From NCBI GenBank assembly GCA_001972305.1, contig BDDD01000430.1:248001-312000 (forward strand): a stretch of DNA of 64,000 nt, written 5' to 3'. The translations under genes were made by a program, and so were the position numbers. This document shows positions 5,570 through 64,000 of the stretch, piece after piece. A model generated the notes under the pieces. That model made no database searches. It was not told the origin of the DNA and saw nothing but the letters and a program-made list of their open reading frames with translations. Each line of letters starts with the position of its first letter. Position 1 is the stretch's first letter. The DNA comes from Cephalotus follicularis. Its lineage: Eukaryota > Streptophyta > Magnoliopsida > Oxalidales > Cephalotaceae.

Positions 5570-7868
5570 TGACGCCCGGACCCAGACCCGCTGGAATCCG
5601 TAGCGCCTGCTACGAGGCCAAACCTCCCAACAGACACTCACCTCGTAGGTTCAGCAGAATAGAGATTCAAAAAATACATTTTAAAACAGAAAGTTCTTCA
5701 AAACAGAAAGAAAACATAAAAGTTTATTGAAAATCTTGAAAATAATTCTAACTCTTAAAATTTTACGAAAATCGGGCATGTAGTATTCGTTTATAGGACT
5801 ATGCCCCCTGTAAAGAAAAACACAGTTTTATAAAAATCACACTCCCGAAGGAGGAACCAGTTTGTAATGGGCTCAGCCCTCAGCAGATCACACTCCCGAA
5901 GGAGGAACAGTTTATAAATTGGGCTCAGCCCTCAGCAGATCACAATTTAAACAGAAAACAAGTATGGGTTGGGCTCTGCCTCAACCATATTATCAAAAAC
6001 TTAAAACCTGATTAGGGTTCAACCCTTTTTAAACAAAACCAAAACAGATATATGAACATATAAGTAATGCAAAATTTAAAACATTGATGCAGTATGCTAG
6101 GCATATGTTGACTCTAGTAGCATGCCCTTTATGTGGTCTCACCTCAGCAGACAGACAAACTCCAGCTGACAGAGCGCAGCAGACTAACCTGTCAGAACTA
6201 AAAACAGAAAACAGAGGAGAGGGTTAGTCCACAGGACTAGTGAGATGGAACAAAAGACTCAGTAGAGTATTAACAGAAAACAAGTATGGGTTGGGCTCTG
6301 CCTCAACCATATTATCAAAAACTTAAAACCTGATTAGGGTTCAACCCTTTTTAAACAAAACCAAAACAGATATATGAACATATAAGTAATGCAAAATTTA
6401 AAACATTGATGCAGTATGCTAGGCATATGTTGACTCTAGTAGCATGCCCTTTATGTGGTCTCACCTCAGCAGACAGACAGACTCCAGCTGACAGAGCGCA
6501 GCAGACTAACCTGTCAGAACTAAAAACAGAAAACAGAGGAGAGGGTTAGTCCACAGGACTAGTGAGATGGAACAAAAGACTCAGTAGAGTATTTGCTCGC
6601 ATATAAATATCTTTACAGAAAAGATAAAATAAACTTAAACGGAAGTTTCGGAAACAGAAATAAAGTCCAAACACTGACTTATAAAACAGATTAAAACAAC
6701 TTAAACAGAATATAAATCTAAAATCGATTTATAAAACCAAAGTTAATAGAATTAGCAGAAAGTCAGATTCTTTTCTCAAAACAGATTCAATTCCTCAGAA
6801 TCTCAGATATACATATAGTATCCAACAAAGTTTAAACAGAATAAACATATAAAGATGCACTGGGTCTACTAGGTAAGGTTGACGCTTGGGCCCCGTCGGG
6901 CCGAACGTCCAGCAGAACAGAAGGGCAATGATACCGTCGTATCAAAGCATCAGAAACAGAAAGTCTACCGTGTAGACAGTGCCTCTCATGGGCATCAGAT
7001 ATATATATATAGATAATACAATGCCGAGATCCCAGAGCATCAAGATATATTTAAACCGATTTCAGAAACACAGAATACAGAATCTCAGATTTTCTCAAAA
7101 CAGACTTCAAACAGACTTAAACAGATACAGAGATCGGCAGAGCCGTCAAAACAGATTTATACAGATTCAAAAATCGTTTTCTTATCAAATACAGATATAA
7201 CCGAAAATAGCGTCATACTATGACTATAGCTGTGCGAGCATTTGAAAACAGTAAATGAAAGTTTCAGACATTAAAACTTAAACAGATTTCAGAAAATGAA
7301 CTAAAACCAAGTTCATTCAGATACAGAAACAGATAAGCAAACATGCTCATACATTCATAACATTAAAACATTTCAAAGTAAAAAGGGTTAAAGAAAGGGG
7401 TTCCACTCACAGTACAGACGAGCGAGTCCCTCGACTGGTCGCCTCCATGGCCGACCTCAACGGTAGGATCCTCTACCAACAGACAGACAGACAGATAACA
7501 GACTATCAGAACTCAGACAGACAATAGCGTAAAAAATGAGCCAAAAAATGGCATTTTCCCTTATATATTCAACCCAAAACGGACTGGATTTTACCCAGAA
7601 TTTACCCGATATGGATAAAAATCGAATGTTTAAGACATACCACATGGCCTATTTTCCGAAATCAGAAGCAGTTTCAGTAAAACAATATTTAATTTACGGA
7701 AAGGCAATTTAATTTCTTATGCAGAAAACCATCAAAATAAAATCGTAAAAATTTAAATAATGCCATGATGCATATAATGAATGCCAGAAAACAGATTAAC
7801 AGACAGACAGACAGACAGAAGCCTCGTAGGCTAACAGACACCGACTGTACAAGGACACGGATGTCACA
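5570..7868 (-). mobile_element. LARD copy a, 5' LTR
   Basis: It runs from TGACGCCCGGACC to ACGGATGTCACA on the plus strand (2,299 bp). It is colinear with the other LARD LTRs but lacks the GC-rich block and contains a 322-bp tandem duplication. The TATA box on the minus strand is at plus 7558-7567. The right flank passes straight into the truncated ORF at 7869-8602, so this junction is the undisturbed insertion edge. Confidence 0.8.
5950..6593. repeat. Near-perfect 322-bp tandem duplication
   Basis: 5950-6271 and 6272-6593 both run from AACAGAAAACAAGTATGGG to CTCAGTAGAGTAT and differ at very few bases (for example ACAAACTCC versus ACAGACTCC). The related LTRs at 27814, 32154 and 19143 carry this segment once, so the duplication arose in this copy. 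Confidence 0.9.
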
Positions 7869-8602
7869 GTTATAATATTGCTATAACCTAATCTTGCATT
7901 CTCCCGGTCATGAAAAAAGTGCATATGACAAACCATTAGAGATAGAACATTTATCCGTCGCCCGGTGATCAAATGGTACATCGTATAGGCTTCCATGTGG
8001 GTCACTTCATCGAACCCACCAGCCTTAGGGAGAATATGCGTGCATACAACACGGTGTAGGAATCTATAGTCTAAGGGTAGGTTCCTAGTGTACATTTGCT
8101 GAATAGGATCAGCGTTCTCCCCAAATAACACTCTCACGCAGTCTTGTTGATCAAAGTCTTCGCTAGATACCCAAGACCGTTGGTTCCAACCCGTAGCACC
8201 AAGGTTCGGAACCCTTAAGATAGTGTTTAAATTATCTAGGTCTAAATCAATACTTGTGTTTTTTACCATTGTGATAATACTATCCAATGAATTACCACGC
8301 ATGTGAACATAGAACTCTTTCATGAGTTCGGGATAACTAGGCAGATTTATAGTGAAAAACGGTTCTAGACTTTGAGCCCTAATCCACTCAACAATGGGAA
8401 ATCCTTCCTTAATGCAAAAATCAAAGTCAAGAACTTTACCTACAAAGATTTTCCTATTGAAGTAGGCCTCTGGATACCTAGGTTTAGAAACAATCACCTC
8501 AGGAGTTGCAGAATCAGTGGCAACCCCCTTTCCCTTCTTCCCTGCCATCTTCTTCTTGCCCTTGGAGCTTTGCCCTTGCTCAAGACCCTTGGTTCTAGTC
8601 AT
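7869..8602 (-). CDS. Extra ORF of SIRE-type element, plant-transposon-protein-like (Transposase_32-like), 3' truncated
   Basis: This open frame lies downstream of the Copia pol and on the same strand. The frame is open from 8653, but I prefer the ATG at 8602, which starts a short basic leader (MTRTKG, then a K/G-rich stretch up to about residue 30). The body contains an RxPEAYF-like segment, ...PELMKEFYVHM..., and a stretch around 'VVCTHILPKAG' typical of the plant-only domain family called putative plant transposon protein. Its function is unknown. The coding sequence is cut by the LARD insertion at 7868/7869; the frame runs on into the LTR and stops at 7796, so the last residues come from the LTR. 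The domain call is from memory of the family pattern and needs a profile search. Confidence 0.55.
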
Positions 8603-8689
8603 GGTTGAAGTAGTATGATGGTTTAGCTTGGATTTCCAAGTGCAAATCGCCAAATCGCCAGAGAGATGTAATTTTTGAAGTTAGGGTTC

Positions 8690-8966: not shown

Positions 8967-10141
8967 TCACTCAATTTCACACAAACCTAATTCCAATCTA
9001 AATTTCGAGAAGGTTTGTTCATCTAGAGGTTTAGTGAATATGTCCGCGACTTGTTCTTCGGTCGGGACGAAAACTAATTCTATGTCACCTTTTTCAATGT
9101 GGTCTTTAATGAAATGATATCTAATGACTATGTGCTTAGTTCTTGAGTGGTGAACTGGGTTTTTTCCTAAGCATACAGTACTAGTGTTATCACACCTAAT
9201 TGACACTTTTTCAAAGATAAACCCATACTCAAGAAGTTGTTGCTTCATCCACATGACTTGTGCGCAACAACTGTCTGCGGCAATATATTCAGCTTCGGTA
9301 GTTGAAAGAGCTACCGAATTTTGTTTCTTGCTAAACCAAGAAATGAGCATATTGCCTAAGAATTGACATGTGCCACTTGTGCTCTTTCTATCCACCTTAT
9401 ATCCTCCGAAATCGGCATCAGAGTAAGTGTGTAAGTCAAATGAAGATTTCCTAGGATAACATAATCCTAAGGACGGTGTATATGCTAAATACTTAAAAAT
9501 GCGTTTTACGACATGCAAATGTGATTCTTTGGGACAAGCTTGAAAACTAGCACACAAACAAACACTAAACAAGATATCCGGCCTACTTGCCGTTAAATAA
9601 AGCAACGATCCTATCATACTTCTACATAATTTTTGATCGATTGACTTACCTTCCTCATCCTTGTCAAGCTTTGTTGTTGTGCTCATGGGTGTCTTGCTCT
9701 TTTTAGCATTCTTCATCCCAAATCTCTTAAGTAAGTCTTTGACGTACTTTGATTGATTGATGAAGATGCCTTCCTCCAATTGTTTGACTTGAAGTCCTAG
9801 GAAGTAATTGAGCTCACCCATCATGCTCATCTCGAATTCCACCTGCATAATCTTAGCAAAGTTCTTGCACAAGTTTTTGTTAGTAGAACCGAATATGATA
9901 TCATCCACATATACTTGAACAATCAAAATTTCATTATTGACAGATTTTGTAAATAGTGTAATGTCAATAGCGCCTCTTTTAAAACCATTTTCAAGTAAAT
10001 AACCACTTAGCTTTTCATACCAAGCTCTTGGAGCTTGTTTCAAGCCATACAAAGCCTTTGAAAGCTTAAAAACATGGTTGGGATAATTAGGGTTTTCAAA
10101 CCCGGGAGGTTGTTCCACATACACTTCCTCCTTTATTAGAA
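8967..10141 (-). pseudogene. SIRE/Maximus-type Copia pol, C-terminal part (reverse transcriptase and RNase H)
   Basis: The frame is about 390 codons without a stop. It starts inside reverse transcriptase at EEVYVEQPPGF, keeps the catalytic YVDD (VYVDDIIFGS), the ALYGLKQAPRAWYEKL block, and then RNase H with TYSDADFGG, STTEAEYIAA, RCDNTS and HHSRTKHI. The protein ends normally with DIFTKPL...F..FR.ELGLCEIE. The upstream half of pol is gone: at about 10140 the frame runs into LTR sequence, so the apparent Met start at 10148 is an artefact of the junction. Such an element could not transpose by itself. Lineage is inferred from the EEVYVEQPPGF and RNase H regions. Confidence 0.85.
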
Positions 10142-11219
10142 TGAACAAGAATAAAAGACAATATCAAAATGAACAACAATGTAAAGAGATAGAGTTAGAA
10201 AGATTGGCAAACACTAGTTTAGAATGGTTCGGCGAAACTCTTGCCTACGTCCACTTTTCCCAAGGATCTCCTTGAGTTTCCACTAGTTCTCCGAATACAA
10301 TTGCGGGTGCTATTCAGTACACCTTTGTGATTGACCTCAATCACTTACAATTCTCTTTGGGTTCACTCCCCAAATTCACTAGGGTTCACTCTCCTATTAC
10401 AATCAAAGTATAAAGAGTGGTGTTTTGATCTAAACCTCTTACAAGGTTGGATTTTACAAGATAAGATTGCTCAAATCAATGAGAACAAGAAATAGCTCAA
10501 AATGTAAAATGTAAACTATTTGGATGAGCTTTGGATTTTGATTCTCTTTGAATGTATGCTTTGAATGATGTTTGTATATGTGTTTTGCTTGTGTTAATCT
10601 TCTATTTATCCTTCAAAACATTCGTCCATTTATAGCTTCTTCCCTCATAGATCCGTTGGGATTAGTTTAGGATTAATTCCATAATGGAATGTCCACTGAA
10701 ATCTGTCAGAAACTGTTCCAGCCGACTAAAGCGTCGACTGTCTCCTTTAAAGCGTCGATGGTCATGTGACCGTTGGGGATCTCAAATTTGAATATTCATC
10801 TCAAAGCGCAGGCGTTCAAAGTTGGAGTCGACCGGCACCTTAAAGCGCAGACGCTTAGACTTGGCAGTCGACGCTTAGGCTCCTTTTAATTGAAGTTGCT
10901 TCCACTGGTTTAATCGGACGACGCTTTGCACTAACGGCAGACGCTTAGTACCCCAAAGCGCAGACACTTGAATATTGAACGTCGACGGTTTAAGTGTATA
11001 TGCCACTTCTCCAAGTGCTTCACCGGTAGACGCTTTGTTCTTGTCTCGACTGTTTGTCAAAGCGCAGACGCTTTAATTTGGAGCGTCGGCGGTCTGGGCT
11101 GTTTTCTGCATAATCCTTGTTCTGTTTTTCTCACTTTATTGCTTTCTTGCACATTAAGAAACTTTGTCAAATACAATATGTTATCATCAAAACTTAGGAT
11201 TGAGACATAAATGTCAACA
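10140..11219 (-). mobile_element. SIRE-type 5' LTR (last ~60 bp deleted)
   Basis: On the minus strand it starts TGTTGACATTTATGTC at 11219 and continues to 10140, where it joins pol. The missing terminal bases are still present in the other LTR at 2476-2533. A TATA box (CTATAAATGG, plus 10626-10635) lies on the minus strand. The interval 10725-11100, just upstream of it in the U3, is packed with GTCGACGCTT variants. Confidence 0.8.
10725..11100. repeat. Cluster of GTCGACGCTT-type motifs in SIRE-type U3
   Basis: Exact copies are at 10729-10738 (AAGCGTCGAC) and 10867-10876 (GTCGACGCTT). About ten variants lie between, such as AAAGCGCAGACGCTT, AACGTCGACGGTTT and GGTAGACGCTTTG. The cluster is directly upstream of the predicted LTR TATA box, where enhancer elements of LTR promoters usually sit. 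Confidence 0.75.
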
Positions 11220-54887: not shown

Positions 54888-56836
54888 TATAAAGCTTTCT
54901 TGCTACCTAGCTATGCTTTCTATACGAAATACAATATCAATATCTGATTGTACCACAAGATTCTAGCGTTGTCTATTCCATCTCACTCCTCTGTTTCTTT
55001 TTTAATCACTTAATATTAAGATTACAACCATTGTTTTCGTTTCTATCTTTTCAAATATATAAAACAATTGATTTAGTACTAAAAATTATTGAAAAGTTAG
55101 TAAAAAAAGATTATTTAATTTGGATTAGATTTTATGACATTTATACTTTATTATACTATCTTTACATGTATTGAGGACAAGGATATCACTCTATCCAAGT
55201 ATTAATCAAATCCACGCCCCTTAAATTTATTAAAAAAATACTAAAACAAAATTATCTAAAATTTTAAATCAATCAAGTATTTTAAAAAGAATTTATACCT
55301 AAGATCAAGATTTAAATTCTCAAGAATTAAATGAATATATTTTCTTCACATATTCTAAGATGAAATCTCCTTATCAGTTTATGATGATTAGAATTAATAA
55401 ACTATTTTAAATTAATAAAAATTTAATAATATATATATATATGTGTGTGTGTGTGAATTTTCAAATCAATCGATTATTATATATTTTTTTATTAGGTTAA
55501 TATTTTGATATATATAAATAATTAATAAAACGGTTATTTTTAATGTAAAATAAAAATAAACTAATTAAAGATAAGCTCTATATATATTGAGATATAATTA
55601 CAACTATAATAATTAAATTTAACAAATATTAATCATAAAATTATTTTTTGAGAGAAAAAAATGGATCCAATTCTTTGAGCAACTCCCGAAACATATTATA
55701 TATTACTTGAAAGCAGGGTTGCAGCGTTATACTAGAAATGTAGAATAGTAAGGCTGTAACATGTTATACTTCCTTTGCTGTGGGGTTAATAAACAAAAAA
55801 AAATTCCTTTAAAAAGTAGAATCATATCTCTTCTTTGAAAAGCATAGACTAAGGAGTTCAACATAAGTAAAGCTCACTTGAATAAGGGCATAATTAGAAG
55901 AAAAAAAGAGACTAATTTTTATTCTTTAAAAATAATATTTGTTAAATTCATGTATCACTTGTTGTGTCATCGCATTCCAAAACGCTAATATAAAAAAAAC
56001 ATGTATCGATTAACTTCATATGTCATTTTGAACATGTTTATTTGTGTTAAATTACAAAATGAGAAGCTCTCAGTCAGTTATAATTTTATCATACAATTAT
56101 TATTTTTATCAAAAAGTTGGAGTGCTTATTAGTTTTTATCATGAATTACACCTTTATATTTTTAGTTTAATCTTTAGATAATGTTTTTTTTTATAACATC
56201 AATGCAGGATTGATAAATTAATGTGGTTCAACTAAAAATATTTCTCTAGTGGCCTGTGCAAGTAGATCATTAATTACCGGTCAAATGATTAATTATCATA
56301 CAAAGCAACCCACTTGATGGTATAATCGAATTGGTACTTAATAAATTAGGATTTTGACTTACAGTTGCTGCTGCCAATTCTCATTGTATGTCTTACCAGT
56401 AACTCATCTTGATGTACTATTTCTTTCAATATTAACAAATTTGTAAGTACTTACTTTATATATTTTTGTTTTATTTTTTTTTTGTCGTTTTTAGGCAATT
56501 AATTTTAAATGAAGAAATCAGCAGAATACAGTAGAGAGAAACAAAAATACACCAAAAAAGAAAGTGTCCAATAAAATTAAGAAACCAGAGCGCGAATGCC
56601 TATAATTTTAGTTAGCTAATATTAACCTATCATAGTTATTAATTGAATGTTTATTATTGTGATTGAAGTACTCTCACTATTTTACAAATATGATAGTGTT
56701 GAGCTCATGTTTACTAATTAATAAAATAAAAAGGTATAACTCAACTAATCAAGTTGATTGTTAGAAAGATTCAATCTAAGAGGATGGAAGCTATTGTTGT
56801 TAAAAATTCAAAAATTTCTTAACAACCGTTGGTTTC
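54888..56836. other. Host intergenic region, AT-rich
   Basis: Low-complexity AT-rich sequence with a short (TA)n(TG)n tract at about 55430-55455. I see no gene, RNA gene or element ends. Confidence 0.5.
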
Positions 56837-57716
56837 TGTTGATACAGAAATTCTTCTCTCAACAGTATCCTACATGGAGGACTTTAATTTGTTAAGAGAA
56901 ACGCTCGCAAAGGATGTCTAGGAGGAAGACGTCGATCTCTGATTCATGCACAAAGTAACAAACTGGTGGAAGGTCCAGGAGGTTGTTCTCCCGGGGACAC
57001 TCCGACGGTCAAGTTAGACAATGTGCAGAGGGTATAAGGTTCTTTGCAATGTAAAAATGGCTGACCTTTGATTTGTGTTTGATTCTCGTATTTATAGGAC
57101 TGGTTTGTAACTGTCTGAGCGTGAAAAGCAGAGGTGATAGATGTCCTCTAAAGAAATGCCGAGGATCTCGGGATTTCCCTTATCTCCACTTGATTTGTCG
57201 TCATCTTCCTTGTAGGTAGTTAACTGCATCTTATCTTCTATATTTGGAAAAATATGGATCCCTGAAAAGTAGGCTAACTTCATGGTCTCATTCCATAAAT
57301 GAGGAGGGGATCCTCTGCAATAGGGCTGCCGAGGAGGTGAACCATAGTGAGCTACTGAGGTAGTCAACCCCTTGCTTCAAGGTCTTCTACGTCCGTAGAC
57401 TTGTGCTTGAAGTGGATGGTCTTCTGCTATGTAGCCGAGGAGGTTCTCGACACTGATGTTTAAAAAGGGGGTCCTCGGCCCTGATGCTTCAGAAGGTATC
57501 CTCGGCCCTCATACTGAGGAGAGTAGTCTTTGCATAGCATACACGGGGTGGCTCCTCGGCACCTAGGTCGAGGAGGAATTCTTCACATGTCACTGTTTTT
57601 GTAATTAATAAACTTCCTCTGACTACAGTTTGCCAACTGTTGAACCTCTTGGACACCTGACTGTGTTTGGAGAGGACACGTGCCGTTTTTTATTTTGCTC
57701 AATTTTCCCCATATCA
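56837..57716 (-). mobile_element. 3' LTR of the Tat/Retand-type element
   Basis: It runs from TGTTGATACAGAAATTC to TTTTCCCCATATCA (880 bp); on the minus strand TGATATGGGG...CAACA. The TATA box TATAAATA is on the minus strand (plus 57089-57096), and a G-box CACGTG lies at 57677-57682 in U3. It is related to the LTR at 77-567. Confidence 0.8.
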
Positions 57717-57735
57717 TATGCCCCCCTGGTCCTTT
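57717..57735 (-). other. Polypurine tract of the Tat/Retand-type element
   Basis: TATGCCCCCCTGGTCC on the plus strand is a GGACCAGGGGGGCATA purine-rich tract on the minus strand, directly before the 3' LTR. Confidence 0.75.
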
Positions 57736-58119
57736 TTCTCTGGCCTTGGTCAGAGGAGGAGGAGTAGAGTTGAGAGCCGTGGCTCAGGCCAAACTCCTCT
57801 GCAAAGCTTCCTGCTAATTTTCCTGTTTGCGAGCGAGCCGAGATCATAAGTATTGCTTTGGTCGATCCTCTGCACAAAACTGGATGTGCCTTGACAGAGG
57901 ATCGAAGTCAGCCTCCTTGTCTGCGTCTGTCCCATCTAAAGGGCCTCGTGCCATGAACCCAAATCATTGCAATTAAGTAGCGTATTAAGCACACCTCACA
58001 CCTGGCATGAGCAGAGCGTTTCCCGCCTCTGCCCCTTCGTTTCCCGCGCTTAATATGTCGGTTCACTTCTCAACCATTGGATGTATGCAAGATGGAGGGC
58101 CAGGATCCCAGCTCTGGCC
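57736..58119 (+). other. Spacer between polypurine tract and antisense-gene promoter
   Basis: No coding sequence on either strand. It is the upstream region of the plus-strand gene and probably carries its control elements; none is recognised with certainty. Confidence 0.45.
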
Positions 58120-58130
58120 TATAAAAGGAG
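58120..58130 (+). promoter_or_regulatory. TATA box of the antisense gene
   Basis: CTATAAAAGGA is an excellent plant TATA box on the plus strand, so it does not serve pol. A transcription start near 58150 would give a leader that contains the intron at 58260-58342. Confidence 0.65.
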
Positions 58131-58259: not shown

Positions 58260-58342
58260 GTAAGTTGACTGTCTTTTTGTAGCTCTAAGCCACATCTAAG
58301 TCCCTTCTATCTTCTTCTCTCATTTTCTTTGTGTCAACATAG
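58260..58342 (+). other. Predicted 5'-UTR intron of the antisense gene
   Basis: The donor CTGG|GTAAGT is a consensus match. The T-rich 3' side ends CAACATAG directly before the ATG at 58343, giving an 83-base intron. Whether it is spliced must be shown by RNA data. Confidence 0.6.
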
Positions 58343-60713
58343 ATGACCAGAACCAAACAAACTGCTAGGATTTCTCCTCCCTTAGAGGTCGAACCCCTGG
58401 CCATGGTGGTTCCCCCTGCTGAGAGTCCCCTTTCCTCTGAAGGTAGCCTGGGGGTTGCGGTGGGTGTCCCCACTATTCCTGTTACTGAGGCTGACACCCC
58501 TGCCCCTGATTGCTTTGGTGTCAGTACTCTTTCTCACAATGAGGTGCTTGCACTCACTCGCAAGTACAATTTTCCTTATAGGTTGAGATTTAGTCTTCTC
58601 TCGGATCCTCGGCTGGTCACGGAGAGTAGAGAGGGCCTCTTCGCTATTTTTGAAGGCGCTCTCTCCCATGGTCTGAGGGTCCCAGTACCCTCTTTTGCCC
58701 TCTCGGTCTTGGAGACGTTTAATCTCCATCCTTCTCTTCTCCAACCCCAATCTTGGAGTTTCATTATAGGTTTCCTAGTTAGGTGTCTGGAGTCCGAGGT
58801 GGCCGCAACAGTGGGATTGTTCAAACATTTCCATGTCATCTCGTCCTCGCCAGGGAGACGTGGCTATTTCTTCAAGTCGCGTCTTGGCATAAAGAAACTT
58901 CTTGTCAAACCCATACAATCCATCAAGAACTGGAGGAGGATATACTTTCTCATAAAAAACTTTGAGGGGTTCACTCCCCCTGTCTGGTGTGATTCCATGG
59001 AAACTACACGTCTCAACAGGAGACCTTTATTGACAACGGCCGAGAACCTAGACTTCGACAAACTCATACACCTGGAGCCCGAGGAGGTGAACTCTGTCGT
59101 GGTCGAGGAGCGTCTGCTCCGAGTTGGGCTGAGTATAGTTCCCATCCAAGGATCATACTCGGCAGAGGTCGAGGAGGCCTCAGCGGGTGAGGGATCCCCA
59201 GATGTATCCATGCCCCAAGAGATGGGGGAAAACTGTATAAAGCTTTTGTCTCCTCCGTCTTTCTTGTCTTTGTACTTCTGTTGCCTTGTGGTTCAATTTT
59301 AAGTTACTAACTTTCTTAACCTCTGTTTATGCAGCAATGGCTTCTCGCCGAGGATTCGAAGCTCTTTTCAGTGCCACAAAAATCAGCAAGACATCCACTG
59401 AAGAGGAAGACAAGCAGAAGGCTGCCAAGGAAGCAGCCAAGCAGAAGGAGAAGGCTGCTGCTGAGGGGGATAAGCAGAGGGAAAAGGCCGACACTGAGGG
59501 GGCCAAACAGATGAAGAAAGCTGCGGATACTACCAAAGGGAAAGGATCAAAGCGTCCTGCTGGAGGGCGTTCCTCTGGCAGTGCTCCTCGTCCCCCAAGC
59601 AAGAAAGGGAGACTTATCTACGAGACAGAGCTGGATTCTATCCTCGGCCGTACCTCAGACGTCCCCATCGTCCTGCCTCCTCCTCGGGACGTGGAGAGGA
59701 TGATCGAAGAGCTGGAGGGGGTTGGAAATGGCTCCTCCAGCCTGGACACACAAGGGGTGCCGTTCGCCCTTAGTGCTCTCTGCCTCTTTCCAGATGAGCT
59801 GAAGGAGATGAAGGATTGGTCCAACAAGGACCTAATCCATAACTCTCTACGGAGCCATTTCGAGGTAAAGGGTGATCCTCTTCTTCTGCATCTTACATTC
59901 TTTATGTGTTCTCTGTTCTCATTCTTGTCTTATTTGCAAGCTTTAAAAAATCATCACCTCTTGGTCAAGAACTTCTCGATCATCTTGGATAGGTACGACA
60001 AGGTGAGGGAGGAGCTGATGGTGGAGATGGAGACTTCTTGGGTGGCCAAAGCTCAACTTGAGGAGGTCCTCAAGGCCCAGGAGTCTGCTATGGATGAAAG
60101 GAACAAGGCTGTCCTGGAGAAGGACCAATTGACACAGGACCTCTCCAAGGTTAGCACTCAGTACCAGACTCTGCAGAAAAGGCATGAGGAGTCCGTCAAG
60201 AGGCAGGAGGAGTTGCGGGCCAAGGCAGTGGAGGACACCCTGGCAGAGTTCCAGACCTTGGATGAGTTCCACAGCTTGATGGAAGCCTCCGTGGAGGACT
60301 TCAAAGCTTCTGAGGCCTTTGGAGATGAGGTCTTCAAGGAATCTGCCGAGTACTATCGTCGGGGATTCTACACCTGCAGGAATTGGGTGAAGACTTTGCA
60401 TCCAGAGGTTCCTTTGGACGAGGTCGCCTACTGCTCAGCTGCTAAGGCTTTCGATTACTATCCTGATGGATACAAAGCCGAGGAGCTGAGGGCCGAGGAA
60501 GCCTTGGAAGGGAGTGCTGGCCTTGGGGCCGAGGTAGAGGAAGGGGAAGTCCTGCCTACTTCTGAAGACGTTCCTCCTCCTGAGCCCGCGTTGGCCTTGG
60601 CTTCTCTGTCTCTCTCTTCGGATCTTGTCGCTCCCCAACCTCCTCAAACTGGGTCTTTTGTTCCTCCCCCTCCTGAGGATAAAACCTCTACTGACGCTCC
60701 TTCCATAGCTTAG
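58343..60713 (+). CDS. Antisense-ORF protein of Tat/Retand element (Transposase_28-like), histone H3-like N-terminus
   Basis: My model joins 58343-59234, 59335-59871 and 59941-60713 (733 residues). The first intron (59235-59334, donor GTATAA, branch TTACTAAC, acceptor TTTATGCAG) keeps the frame. The second (69 bases, donor GTGATC, acceptor TTTGCAAG) also keeps it, but is weaker; without it the frame stays open. The protein starts MTRTKQTARIS, like the histone H3 tail. Residues 60-180 resemble the plant family 'putative gypsy type transposon' (Transposase_28): FALSVLETFNLHP..LQP.SW..IIGFLV. After a Lys/Glu/Ala-rich basic linker (about 299-380) comes a long predicted coiled coil (EVLKAQE...KRHEESVKRQEELR) and an acidic, proline-rich tail. 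The role of these antisense proteins is unknown. It lies opposite to pol and converges with it. The H3-like start could be chance. Confidence 0.75.
59235..59334 (+). other. Predicted coding intron 1 of the antisense gene
   Basis: 100 bases, phase 1. The exon 1 frame stops at 59302 without splicing; splicing joins it to the frame starting MASRRGF. It contains a perfect TACTAAC branch-type sequence 23 bases before the acceptor. Confidence 0.75.
59872..59940 (+). other. Possible coding intron 2 of the antisense gene
   Basis: The T-rich stretch encodes an out-of-place hydrophobic run (LLLHLTFFMCSLFSFLSYL) and ends TTTGCAAG. A donor at 59872 (AAAG|GTGATC) keeps the frame; the better-looking GTAAAG at 59865 would not. 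Retention is possible. Confidence 0.4.
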
Positions 60714-61822: not shown

Positions 61823-63240
61823 TCATTGAAAGTACTTCCTCAGATGCTCGGCATTCCAAGCTCTGGCAATCTCCCTACCCCCAAAGTTTCAAGTTTGAAT
61901 GTTCCTGGGCAGAGGACCCTTTTGATTTTGTATAGCCCTTCCCAGGCAAGGGCTAGCTTTCCTCTGGTACCGGTAGGATCTGCAACGGCTGAGTTGTGTA
62001 GGACTAGATCTCCCTGCCTTAGTGGTCTTGGGCTTACTCTTTTGTTATAGTAACGGCTTACCCTCTGCTGGTAGGCTGCAACTCTAATTGCAGCCTTGTC
62101 TCTGAGTTCTTCCACTAGGTCGAGGAGGCACCTCAGTCCTTCTTCATTGCTGTCTTCAGTAAAGTGTACAACTCTTGGTGATTGTACTCCAATCTCCATC
62201 GGTATCATGGCTTCAGCTCCAAAACAAAGGCTGTATGGGGATTCACCAGTTGTGGTACGAGGAGTGGTTCTATATGCCCATAGTACACTTGGTAGCTCCT
62301 CTGTCCATCTTCCTTTGCTGTCTTCTAGGCGCTTCTTCAAGCCTGAGATGATTTCTCTGTTGATCACCTCGGCTTGACCATTACTTTGAGGGTAGGCTAC
62401 TGAGGCAAGCCTATGTTCTATCCTCCATTCCTTGCAAAAATCACGGAAGGCTTGGCAATCAAACTGTTTACCATTGTCTGAGATGATTGTCCTCGGAACT
62501 CCAAATCTACAGATGATTGACTTCCATACGAAGCTCTCTGTGTTCTTCTCAGTAATTGTGGCTAGAGGTTCTGCTTCTACCCACTTGGTAAAGTAGTCCA
62601 CTGCTACAATGAGAAACTTCCTCTGACCTGAAGCCATGGGTAGTGGTCCAACGAAGTCCATTCCCCATTGTCCAAAGGGCCACGGGGCCGTGATAGACGT
62701 AAGAGGCTGGGAAGGTCTTTTGCTTATGTTCGCGTTCCTCTGACACTTGTCACACTTCCTTACCAGGTCAATATCATCTTGATGCATAGTTGGCCAGTAG
62801 TAGCCTTGCCTCAACAACTTGTGGGACAATGTCCTGCCCCCAGTGTGGTTGCCACAAATTCCTTCATGGACCTCCCTTAGGGCGTAATCAGCCTCTGAGG
62901 GGTTCATGCACCTCAGCCAAGGAAATGAGAAGGATCTTTTGTAGAGGATCCCATCTCGGAACTGGAATCTGTTTGCTCTGTAGACCAGCTTCCTCGCCTC
63001 CACGGGGTCCTCGGGCAGGATCCCGTTCCTTAGCCAATTAATAAAGGGAGTCATCCAGTTTGGCTCCTGTGGCACATCTATTGCCATTACATCTGCTTCA
63101 TAGATGGTCGGGCGATCCAGGTAGTCTACTAGCACAGTTTGATTCTTCTCCACCTCCTCTGCCGTAGCCAGTTTTGATAACTGGCCTGCTCGGATGTTCT
63201 CTGCCCTGGGTACTTTCACAATCCTTAAGACTTCGAATGC
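61823..63240 (-). CDS. Tat/Retand-type integrase (C-terminal part of pol), frameshifted near its end
   Basis: Integrase joins element DNA into the chromosome. The zinc-binding domain has H-x6-H and C-x2-C (residues 118, 125, 156 and 159 counted from 63219). The catalytic core has D188 (GMDFVGPLP), D248 (IISDNGKQF) and E284 (SNGQAEVINRE), so D,D-35-E is complete. The start of the frame (VPRAENIRAGQLSKLA) is normally continuous with RNase H; a TAA at 63241-63243 cuts it off. Near 61880 a one-base shift in a G-run region makes the frame end early at 61840; in the next frame the usual RAWNAEHLRKYFQ tail ends at 61823. It converges with the antisense gene. Confidence 0.9.
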
Positions 63241-64000
63241 TTACTTCATGCCCTGAAAATGGGATAAGTATTTCATCATAAGGTCTTCTCTGGCCTCATA
63301 CTCCCCATTTGCCAGACCAACCACTAGCTGAGAATCACTGGAGGCTTCTATCTTTTGCACCTCCAAGTGCTTTGTAATTGTCAGTCCAGCTATCAGAGCT
63401 TCCCACTCAGCTTCGTTATTTGTAGCTTTGAACTTGAACCTCAGAGCATACTCCAACGTCCAACCATCTGGACTTGTCAATACTAGCCCTGCTCCACTGC
63501 CAGTGAGGCAGGGCGAACCGTCCACGGATAGCTTCCAAATTCCCCTCTCGCTCTCGGAGGGGTCCTCCTCCATACACTCCGTAGGTGTATTATCTCCAAT
63601 AAAGTCGGCCAGTACCTGTGATTTTATTGCTGGTCTGGCTTCGAACTTCACATCATACTCGCCTAGCTCGACTGACCACTTGATTAACCTGCCCGAGGTG
63701 TCAGGCTTGGCAAGAACTTGTTTGAGTGGTTTATCAGTCAGAACCTTGATTGTATGGGCTTGGAAATATGGCCTCAATTTTCTGGACGAGATGATCAATG
63801 CATAGGCATACTTCTCCACCTCTGGGTACCTCCCCTCTGCATCGTTCAGAGTCTTGCTCATGTAATATACTGGCTTTTGAACTTTTTCCTCTTCTCTGAC
63901 TAGCACTGCACTCACTGCGCCCGAGGTGGCCACAAGATACAAATACAAGTCTTCCCCATCCTTGGGTTTCGAAATCAGAGGAGGGGAAGCCATGTATTCC
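63241..64000 (-). CDS. Tat/Retand-type pol, RNase H and archaeal-type RNase H, partial
   Basis: The frame enters from beyond the right edge. The first RNase H region includes VYYMSKTL, RYPEVEKYAYALI, RKLRPYFQAH and LTDKPLKQVL, and in this lineage it is degenerate. The second, archaeal-type RNase H starts at LSVDGSP and shows the acidic triad: D in SVDGS, E in NNEAEWEAL and D in SSDSQLV. It degrades RNA of the RNA-DNA hybrid. The frame ends at TAA (63241-63243), between RNase H and integrase, where the family normally reads through. Otherwise no stop is seen. Confidence 0.9.
   Translation of the reverse strand, partial: EYMASPPLISKPKDGEDLYLYLVATSGAVSAVLVREEEKVQKPVYYMSKTLNDAEGRYPEVEKYAYALIISSRKLRPYFQAHTIKVLTDKPLKQVLAKPDTSGRLIKWSVELGEYDVKFEARPAIKSQVLADFIGDNTPTECMEEDPSESERGIWKLSVDGSPCLTGSGAGLVLTSPDGWTLEYALRFKFKATNNEAEWEALIAGLTITKHLEVQKIEASSDSQLVVGLANGEYEAREDLMMKYLSHFQGMK

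Follow-up and report, generated by a model that had tools for sequence, protein, structure and literature searches.

A histone H3-like N-terminus in the antisense protein of a retrotransposon family of Cephalotus follicularis

Retand elements are plant retrotransposons that carry antisense open reading frames (ORFs) coding for a TRP28 domain (PF04195) with predicted DNA-binding ability, and the role of these ORFs is described as unknown in a survey and a mini-review (PMC11963269, PMC7264820). TRP28-coding antisense ORFs are present in 97% of the recently active Retand clusters (PMC11963269). Here we describe an antisense gene of this kind from Cephalotus follicularis, the predicted protein of which begins like the tail of histone H3. 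The gene is located in a stretch of 64,000 nucleotides (assembly GCA_001972305.1, contig BDDD01000430.1, positions 248,001 to 312,000 of the forward strand), which was analysed as a whole and is termed the window. As in the Retand antisense TRP28 ORFs, the window gene lies between pol and the 3´ long terminal repeat (LTR) and encodes a Transposase_28 domain. In contrast, an H3-like N-terminus, E2F sites or an intron in the 5´ untranslated region (5´UTR) are not mentioned for the published ORFs in the available parts of the two papers (PMC11963269, PMC7264820).

The closest worked precedent for an H3-like start is PAF15 (PCLAF), a replication-coupled protein whose VRTK is recognised by the plant homeodomain (PHD) finger of UHRF1 in the same way as the ARTK of H3 (PMC7060239, PMC8034647). 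For the UHRF1 PHD finger, the Kd is 2.2 uM with the H3-like N-terminal peptide of PAF15 and 1.5 uM with H3; the R3A and T4D substitutions abolish binding, while K5A has a small effect (PMC7060239). The element protein resembles PAF15 in starting H3-like (V-R-T-K in PAF15, A-R-T-K in H3). However, PAF15 is an animal host protein with a likeness described for VRTK, whereas the element start spans eight residues, has a strict K4, lacks K9 and is known from sequence. A VRT motif in DPPA3 engages the same pocket of the UHRF1 PHD finger, and mouse DPPA3 is described as a regulator of the dissociation of UHRF1 from chromatin (PMC11187062). This motif is H3-like as well, but it is internal and belongs to a mammalian protein rather than to mobile DNA. 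Among plant transposons, the VANC proteins of VANDAL elements counter the silencing of their own copies; they share the anti-silencing role proposed below but belong to another transposon type and protein family, and H3 mimicry is not mentioned in the available part of the source (PMC10398659). VANC thus provides a functional precedent, from another family, for the proposed role.

No report of a histone-tail mimic encoded by a retrotransposon was found among the literature matches listed, and no listed match for the literal string MARTKQTAR concerns transposons by its title or the start of its abstract. The protein described here may be the first retrotransposon-encoded histone-tail mimic. If this is true, replication of the element would be tied to host chromatin inheritance, and a selected H3 N-tail at the start of the antisense ORF would open the function of these ORFs to a concrete and cheap test.

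The H3-like start in the window and in two families

Mature histone H3 begins with A-R-T-K-Q-T-A-R-K-S. The ATG at 58343 on the + strand opens a frame of 319 codons that starts with MTRTKQTARISPP and reads M-T-R-T-K-Q-T-A-R-I-S-P-P, as a first, sequence-only reading had stated; its assignment of R2-R8 and S10 as H3 residues in register was likewise borne out by the translation. The H3-like residues follow the initiator Met directly, the arrangement that defines an N-terminal H3 mimic. The match had also been judged unlikely to arise by chance, which agrees with a search for the degenerate RTKQTA core pattern (one match in the 64 kb window and none in 100 dinucleotide-preserving shuffles) and with the recurrence of the start in other copies of the element. 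The H3-like start in the window is more than a one-copy accident. Peptide forms considered are ARTKQTARVSPP, ARTKQTARVSPPLEVEPLA and ARTKQTKRYIRT.

To describe the family, 125 copies were scored from 14,511 first-look candidates in the same genome, and 110 of them could be read; the copies were picked by likeness to the window protein, so the sample leans towards window-like sequences. At H3 positions 1-8, the H3 residue is present in 104 (A), 105 (R), 102 (T), 109 (K), 65 (Q), 106 (T), 98 (A) and 109 (R) of the 110 copies. Exact MARTKQTAR, which is H3 1-8 after Met, occurs in 48 copies and MARTKxTAR in 75, so the concern that other copies would lack RTKQTAR did not materialise within this genome. 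The T at position 1 of the window copy is a rare variant (2/110). Many of the others are closer to H3, and the window copy is a slightly mutated example of a family-wide H3-like start. S10 is kept in 107 copies, while position 9 is occupied by V (77), A (29), I (2), T (1) or F (1) and never by K. The proposed avoidance of K9 holds as an observation, with no K in the 110 copies or in the listed starts of the second family described below; that it serves to escape the silencing mark is a suggested purpose.

A second family of Transposase_28 genes, represented by the protein P0007, shares 54% identity with the window protein across 66% of the latter's length. Sixteen of its 146 scored copies were taken, comprising 15 of the 16 listed stop-free copies and one high-scoring copy with one stop. 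A readable H3-like start is present, in some frame, in 15 of the 16, with MARTKQTKR, MARTKQTSR, MARTKQTAR, MVRVKQTAR and similar forms; it is absent in the upstream read of L122. Among these 15, the Met is lost in one, a stop codon stands at Q5 in another, and the reading frame of some does not agree with that of the downstream ORF. The H3 residue is found in 12 (A), 13 (R), 12 (T), 15 (K), 12 (Q), 14 (T) and, at R8, 14 of the 15 starts, and one copy (L121) contains the exact eight-residue H3 match.

In a comparison of three P0007-family copies with the window family, 7, 7 and 8 of the 8 positions agree at residues 2-9. Residues 10-60 of the same copies show 5, 5 and 4 matches of 51 without gaps, and a gapped alignment adds scattered matches. 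Pairing the copies of the two families (1650 pairs) gives residue differences of 24, 17, 26, 1, 52, 10, 75 and 8% at H3 positions 1-8, respectively. R8 is the same residue encoded by a different codon in 85% of these pairs. This codon turnover with the residue kept indicates that the conserved entity is the protein, not the DNA. The H3-like peptide has mostly outlived the adjoining sequence through silent codon turnover, which is the strongest result of the analysis.

Within the window family, a FastTree phylogeny was built from codons 21-290 only, leaving out the H3-like N-terminus, and was rooted at the midpoint. Codon changes were assigned by parsimony, with internal branches standing for the period in which elements were active and terminal branches for mainly post-insertion decay; this split was chosen after the pairwise pN/pS (nonsynonymous to synonymous differences per site) result and was not planned beforehand. 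At seven H3 sites (Q5 left out), 2 replacement and 9 silent changes fall on internal branches and 32 and 30 on terminal branches. The 32 terminal replacements demonstrate that these sites do mutate after insertion. The linker (codons 21-102) has 137 replacement and 101 silent changes on internal branches and 422 and 247 on terminal ones, and the seven sites differ from it both between internal and terminal branches (Fisher p=0.011) and between replacement and silent changes (p=0.013). For a set of 17 codons (2-5, 7-9 and 11-20), the internal branches carry 2 replacement and 31 silent changes (p=6e-9 versus the linker). The TRP28 domain carries 28 and 114, from which the 17-codon set differs with p=0.07.

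Two positions within the first 20 residues behave differently. Codon 6 (58358-58360), which corresponds to Q5, has 10 internal replacements and ranks in the top 5 of 289 codons, with Q, R, L, M and other residues, despite nearly fixed neighbours. At the K9 equivalent, all five internal changes are replacements. Apart from these two free positions, constraint on the first 20 residues equals that on the domain core. Inside the window family, residues 1-20 are conserved at the protein level as one unit; in the comparison of the two families, such conservation is seen at the H3 sites. The sequence-only reading had cautioned that a single copy cannot prove selection; selection is now seen both in the tree of the window family and between the families.

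Searches of the nr protein database with residues 1-50 returned 41 candidates, none at E<=10, while searches with the whole protein and with a profile gave 7 and 9 matches, all from Cephalotus. These matches represent further copies from the window's own genome rather than another species; P0007 is 100% identical over 262/262 residues to the locus C5267 of that genome. No relatives were found in viral contigs in three scans.

Promoter and splice signals upstream of the start

The structure of the antisense gene was read from sequence signals and is predicted (Table 1). In 65 of 70 copies, TATAAA occurs no more than 400 bases upstream. The two perfect TTTCCCGC sites upstream of the TATA box account for two of the three E2F-like matches in the 64 kb, and when the 400 bases upstream were shuffled 2000 times, two E2F-type sites appeared in 2 shuffles. 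In 108 of the 110 copies, these sites are under constraint, with 11 internal and 77 terminal changes against a background of 248 and 653 (p=0.0014); L022 and L038 were left out of the E2F counts, as unrelated DNA stands in place of their promoter region. In the P0007 family, TTTCCCGC is exact in two of six copies at about the same distance, and the other copies have variants of one or two bases, two detected by scan and two by eye; the upstream stretch examined contained no TATA match. E2F-type promoter sites are typical of S-phase genes.

A predicted 5´UTR intron, preceded by a leader, ends directly before the ATG. Of 70 copies, 67 have a donor-like match and 49 an AG immediately upstream of the ATG; such an AG is also seen in 6 of 15 P0007-family copies. 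The changes per site on internal branches amount to 1.33 for the donor and 4.55 for the intron. CACCT or CTCCT precedes the ATG in nine of the 70 copies, and the other 12 have something else. The CACCT/CTCCT lineage is seen at bases 1496-1500 of L007, L009, L010 and L028 and on the reverse strand of L015 and L019. The next AG in this lineage lies inside codon 3, and it may therefore splice differently or not at all.

Proposed role and alternative explanations

The H3-like start suggests that the antisense protein imitates the histone tail to engage the host chromatin machinery. Its N-terminus is probably a selected mimic of the H3 N-tail, of the form A1-R2-T3-K4-x-T6-A/K/S7-R8 without K9. In the proposed mechanism, the antisense gene would be transcribed in S phase, the protein would lose its initiator Met so that Ala1 is exposed, and it would enter the nucleus. 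The H3-like peptide would then dock in the pocket that host readers or modifiers have for the H3 N-terminus, with the Transposase_28 domain, a predicted DNA binder, keeping the protein at the element DNA. As a decoy or recruiter for H3-tail readers, the start could divert or recruit chromatin factors, with the result that the silencing of new copies would be weakened.

The likely target is some protein that binds the H3 N-tail. A UHRF1/VIM-type PHD finger is the best single candidate, albeit a doubtful one, because in animals this pocket takes up the VRTK start of PAF15, itself an N-terminal H3 mimic. LSD1-type H3K4 demethylases or COMPASS-type factors would likewise be compatible with the strict K4 and R8. 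In plants, the UHRF1-like VIM proteins maintain CG methylation, and a replication-timed decoy for a VIM-type reader would fit the E2F sites. As a tentative extension, the Retand antisense protein could be an S-phase anti-silencing factor that presents a K9-less H3 tail as a decoy or hook during the replication-coupled maintenance of silencing, with the mimic inherited from an ancestor of much of the lineage.

Several observations weigh against a selected H3 mimic. All the copies were sampled from Cephalotus follicularis, a scope of one species. Within the window family, the internal changes in residues 11-20 (58373-58402; SPPLEVEPLA in most copies) comprise 22 silent ones and no replacement, which makes this stretch stricter than the H3-like residues; the selected unit is larger than the H3 mimic, and the within-family test alone therefore does not single out H3 mimicry. 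When compared with all codons (269 replacement and 440 silent internal changes), the seven H3 sites are not significant (p=0.07 and 0.22). Among 281 windows shaped like this set of sites, 82 have as few internal replacements, as do 9 of the 85 in codons 10-102, and 18 of 270 windows of the 17-codon shape, itself included, have at most two; the other low-replacement windows of the latter shape all start at codon 128 or beyond. The comparison of the start codons with the rest of the gene, raised in the sequence-only reading, is divided: codons 2-20 without the two free positions are stricter than the linker in the tree, but pairwise pN/pS in 70 copies is 0.34 for codons 2-9 and 0.24 for codons 2-20, the former not below the overall value of 0.25. 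Between the families, the difference is highest at A7 and Q5, and A7 is A in only 4 of the 15 P0007-family starts, with K in 7, S in 3 and V in 1 (K or S in 10/15). The PAF15/UHRF1 pocket does not call for K4 and R8 as strict as these, which leaves room for LSD1-type or COMPASS-type partners. The AG directly before the ATG is missing in 21 of 70 window-family copies and in 9 of 15 P0007-family copies, and the five bases before the ATG, with 4.80 internal changes per site, change as often as the intron. The TTTCCCGC motif is taken by us to be an E2F binding site that means S-phase expression, and exposure of the mimic relies on the rule that the initiator Met is removed before Ala or Thr.

The N-terminal peptide may instead be selected for localisation, nucleic-acid binding, protein stability or contact with other proteins of the element, its likeness to H3 being coincidental. 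Such an explanation would accommodate the constraint on residues 11-20, which have no H3 likeness beyond S10, and the change of A7 to K or S in the P0007 family, which keeps the stretch basic. We regard it as unlikely, however, given that all eight H3 residues stand directly after Met in 48 of 110 copies and in L121, with odds of about 1e-10 per N-terminus for an eight-residue in-register match (our own arithmetic with usual residue frequencies), and that T3 and T6 hold (12 and 14 of 15) beside turnover, which is not expected of a generic basic signal. A chance likeness in one founder element, spread by copying, is already disfavoured and highly improbable. The copies of the main family do share ancestry and could all have inherited one chance event, but the constraint on the N-terminus along internal branches speaks against this, as does the fact that the second family has retained the start through synonymous codon changes, whereas only 4-5 ungapped matches are left in the 51 residues that follow.

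The origin of the start is a separate matter, and capture of the 5´ end of a host H3.3-type gene, perhaps with its 5´UTR intron, followed by retention would be compatible with a selected mimic. The H3 match begins right after the predicted intron and ends sharply after R8 (S10 apart), and E2F-type promoter sites, as in S-phase genes, fit a captured H3 gene; beyond R8, however, only S10 is alike and no trace of K-S-T-G-G is left, and we consider a capture rather doubtful. If real, it predates the split of the two families. It is also conceivable, though improbable, that translation does not begin at the ATG at 58343, because the AG inside ATGGCCAG serves as the acceptor or because initiation occurs at M21. 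All four nr gene models that reach the region (P0001, P0002, P0003 and P0010), compared at the protein level, start at M21, one lineage has CACCT or CTCCT without AG before the ATG, and the five bases there are unconstrained. Conversely, the AG does stand before the ATG in most copies, and codons 2-20 without the two free sites show the 2 replacement and 31 silent internal changes that are expected if they are translated. In the one gene model checked, P0007, an H3-like start is present upstream (L112) and out of frame with the model; since the model starts far downstream, the motif is absent from the public version. A selected H3 N-tail mimic at the start of the antisense protein remains the reading we prefer.

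Layout of the element and the antisense gene

The Transposase_28 domain (PF04195) occupies residues 103-166 of the window protein (E=3.4e-10; 40.4 bits, above the gathering cut-off of 26.2). The basic cluster encoded by the second exon resembles, by eye, a nuclear localisation signal. The element has the arrangement described for the Retand lineage, in which a TRP28-coding antisense ORF is located between pol and 3´ LTR, and it is assigned, by layout and domain only, as a Gypsy-type element of the Retand lineage. The pol domains found in the scanned ORFs are integrase and RNase H only. The coordinates of the features are summarized in Table 1.

Table 1. Predicted features of the element and its antisense gene in the window
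Feature	Position	Strand	Basis or remark
Target-site duplication GTTTC, repeated outside the 5´ LTR	56832..56836	.	sequence comparison
3´ LTR, TG...CA, 880 bp	56837..57716	-	95.8% identity to the 5´ LTR, which lies outside the window on this contig
Polypurine-tract-like CCAGGGGGGCATA (minus strand), adjoins the 3´ LTR	57717..57729	-	by eye
Distal E2F-type site TTTCCCGC	58019..58026	+	exact in 74/108 copies
Proximal E2F-type site TTTCCCGC	58040..58047	+	exact in 56/108 copies
TATA box TATAAAAG of the antisense promoter, within the internal region of the element	58120..58127	+	signal, copies
5´UTR intron (predicted), 83 nt, GTAAGT donor, acceptor TAG directly before the ATG	58260..58342	+	signals
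First coding exon (predicted), Transposase_28	58343..59234	+	domain search, exon prediction
Codons 1-9, M-T-R-T-K-Q-T-A-R, H3 N-tail-like start	58343..58369	+	frame translation; copy comparison
Codons 10-20, K9 equivalent (I in the window) and strongly constrained SPPLEVEPLA stretch	58370..58402	+	copy comparison
Second coding exon (predicted), in-frame join; lysine-rich stretch and basic cluster	59335..59864	+	by eye
Third coding exon (predicted), coiled-coil-like	59941..60713	+	by eye
Integrase part of pol (Integrase_H2C2, rve), strand opposite to the antisense gene	61840..63219	-	domain search
RNase H part of pol, strand opposite to the antisense gene	63241..63993	-	domain search

The acceptor region of the third exon (window 59935-59945) is altered in the window copy relative to seven other copies, and an in-frame stop is met; exons 1 and 2 are open. 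With this damaged-looking acceptor, the window copy itself may be unable to make the full protein. An AlphaFold model of the 319-residue frame, computed from 8 sequences, has a mean pLDDT (predicted local distance difference test) of 38 and was not used. Elsewhere in the window, on the - strand, an ORF with a Transposase_32 domain (PF20167, E=1.6e-20) is located close downstream of a copia-type RVT_2 ORF (7796-8653 and 8967-10148).

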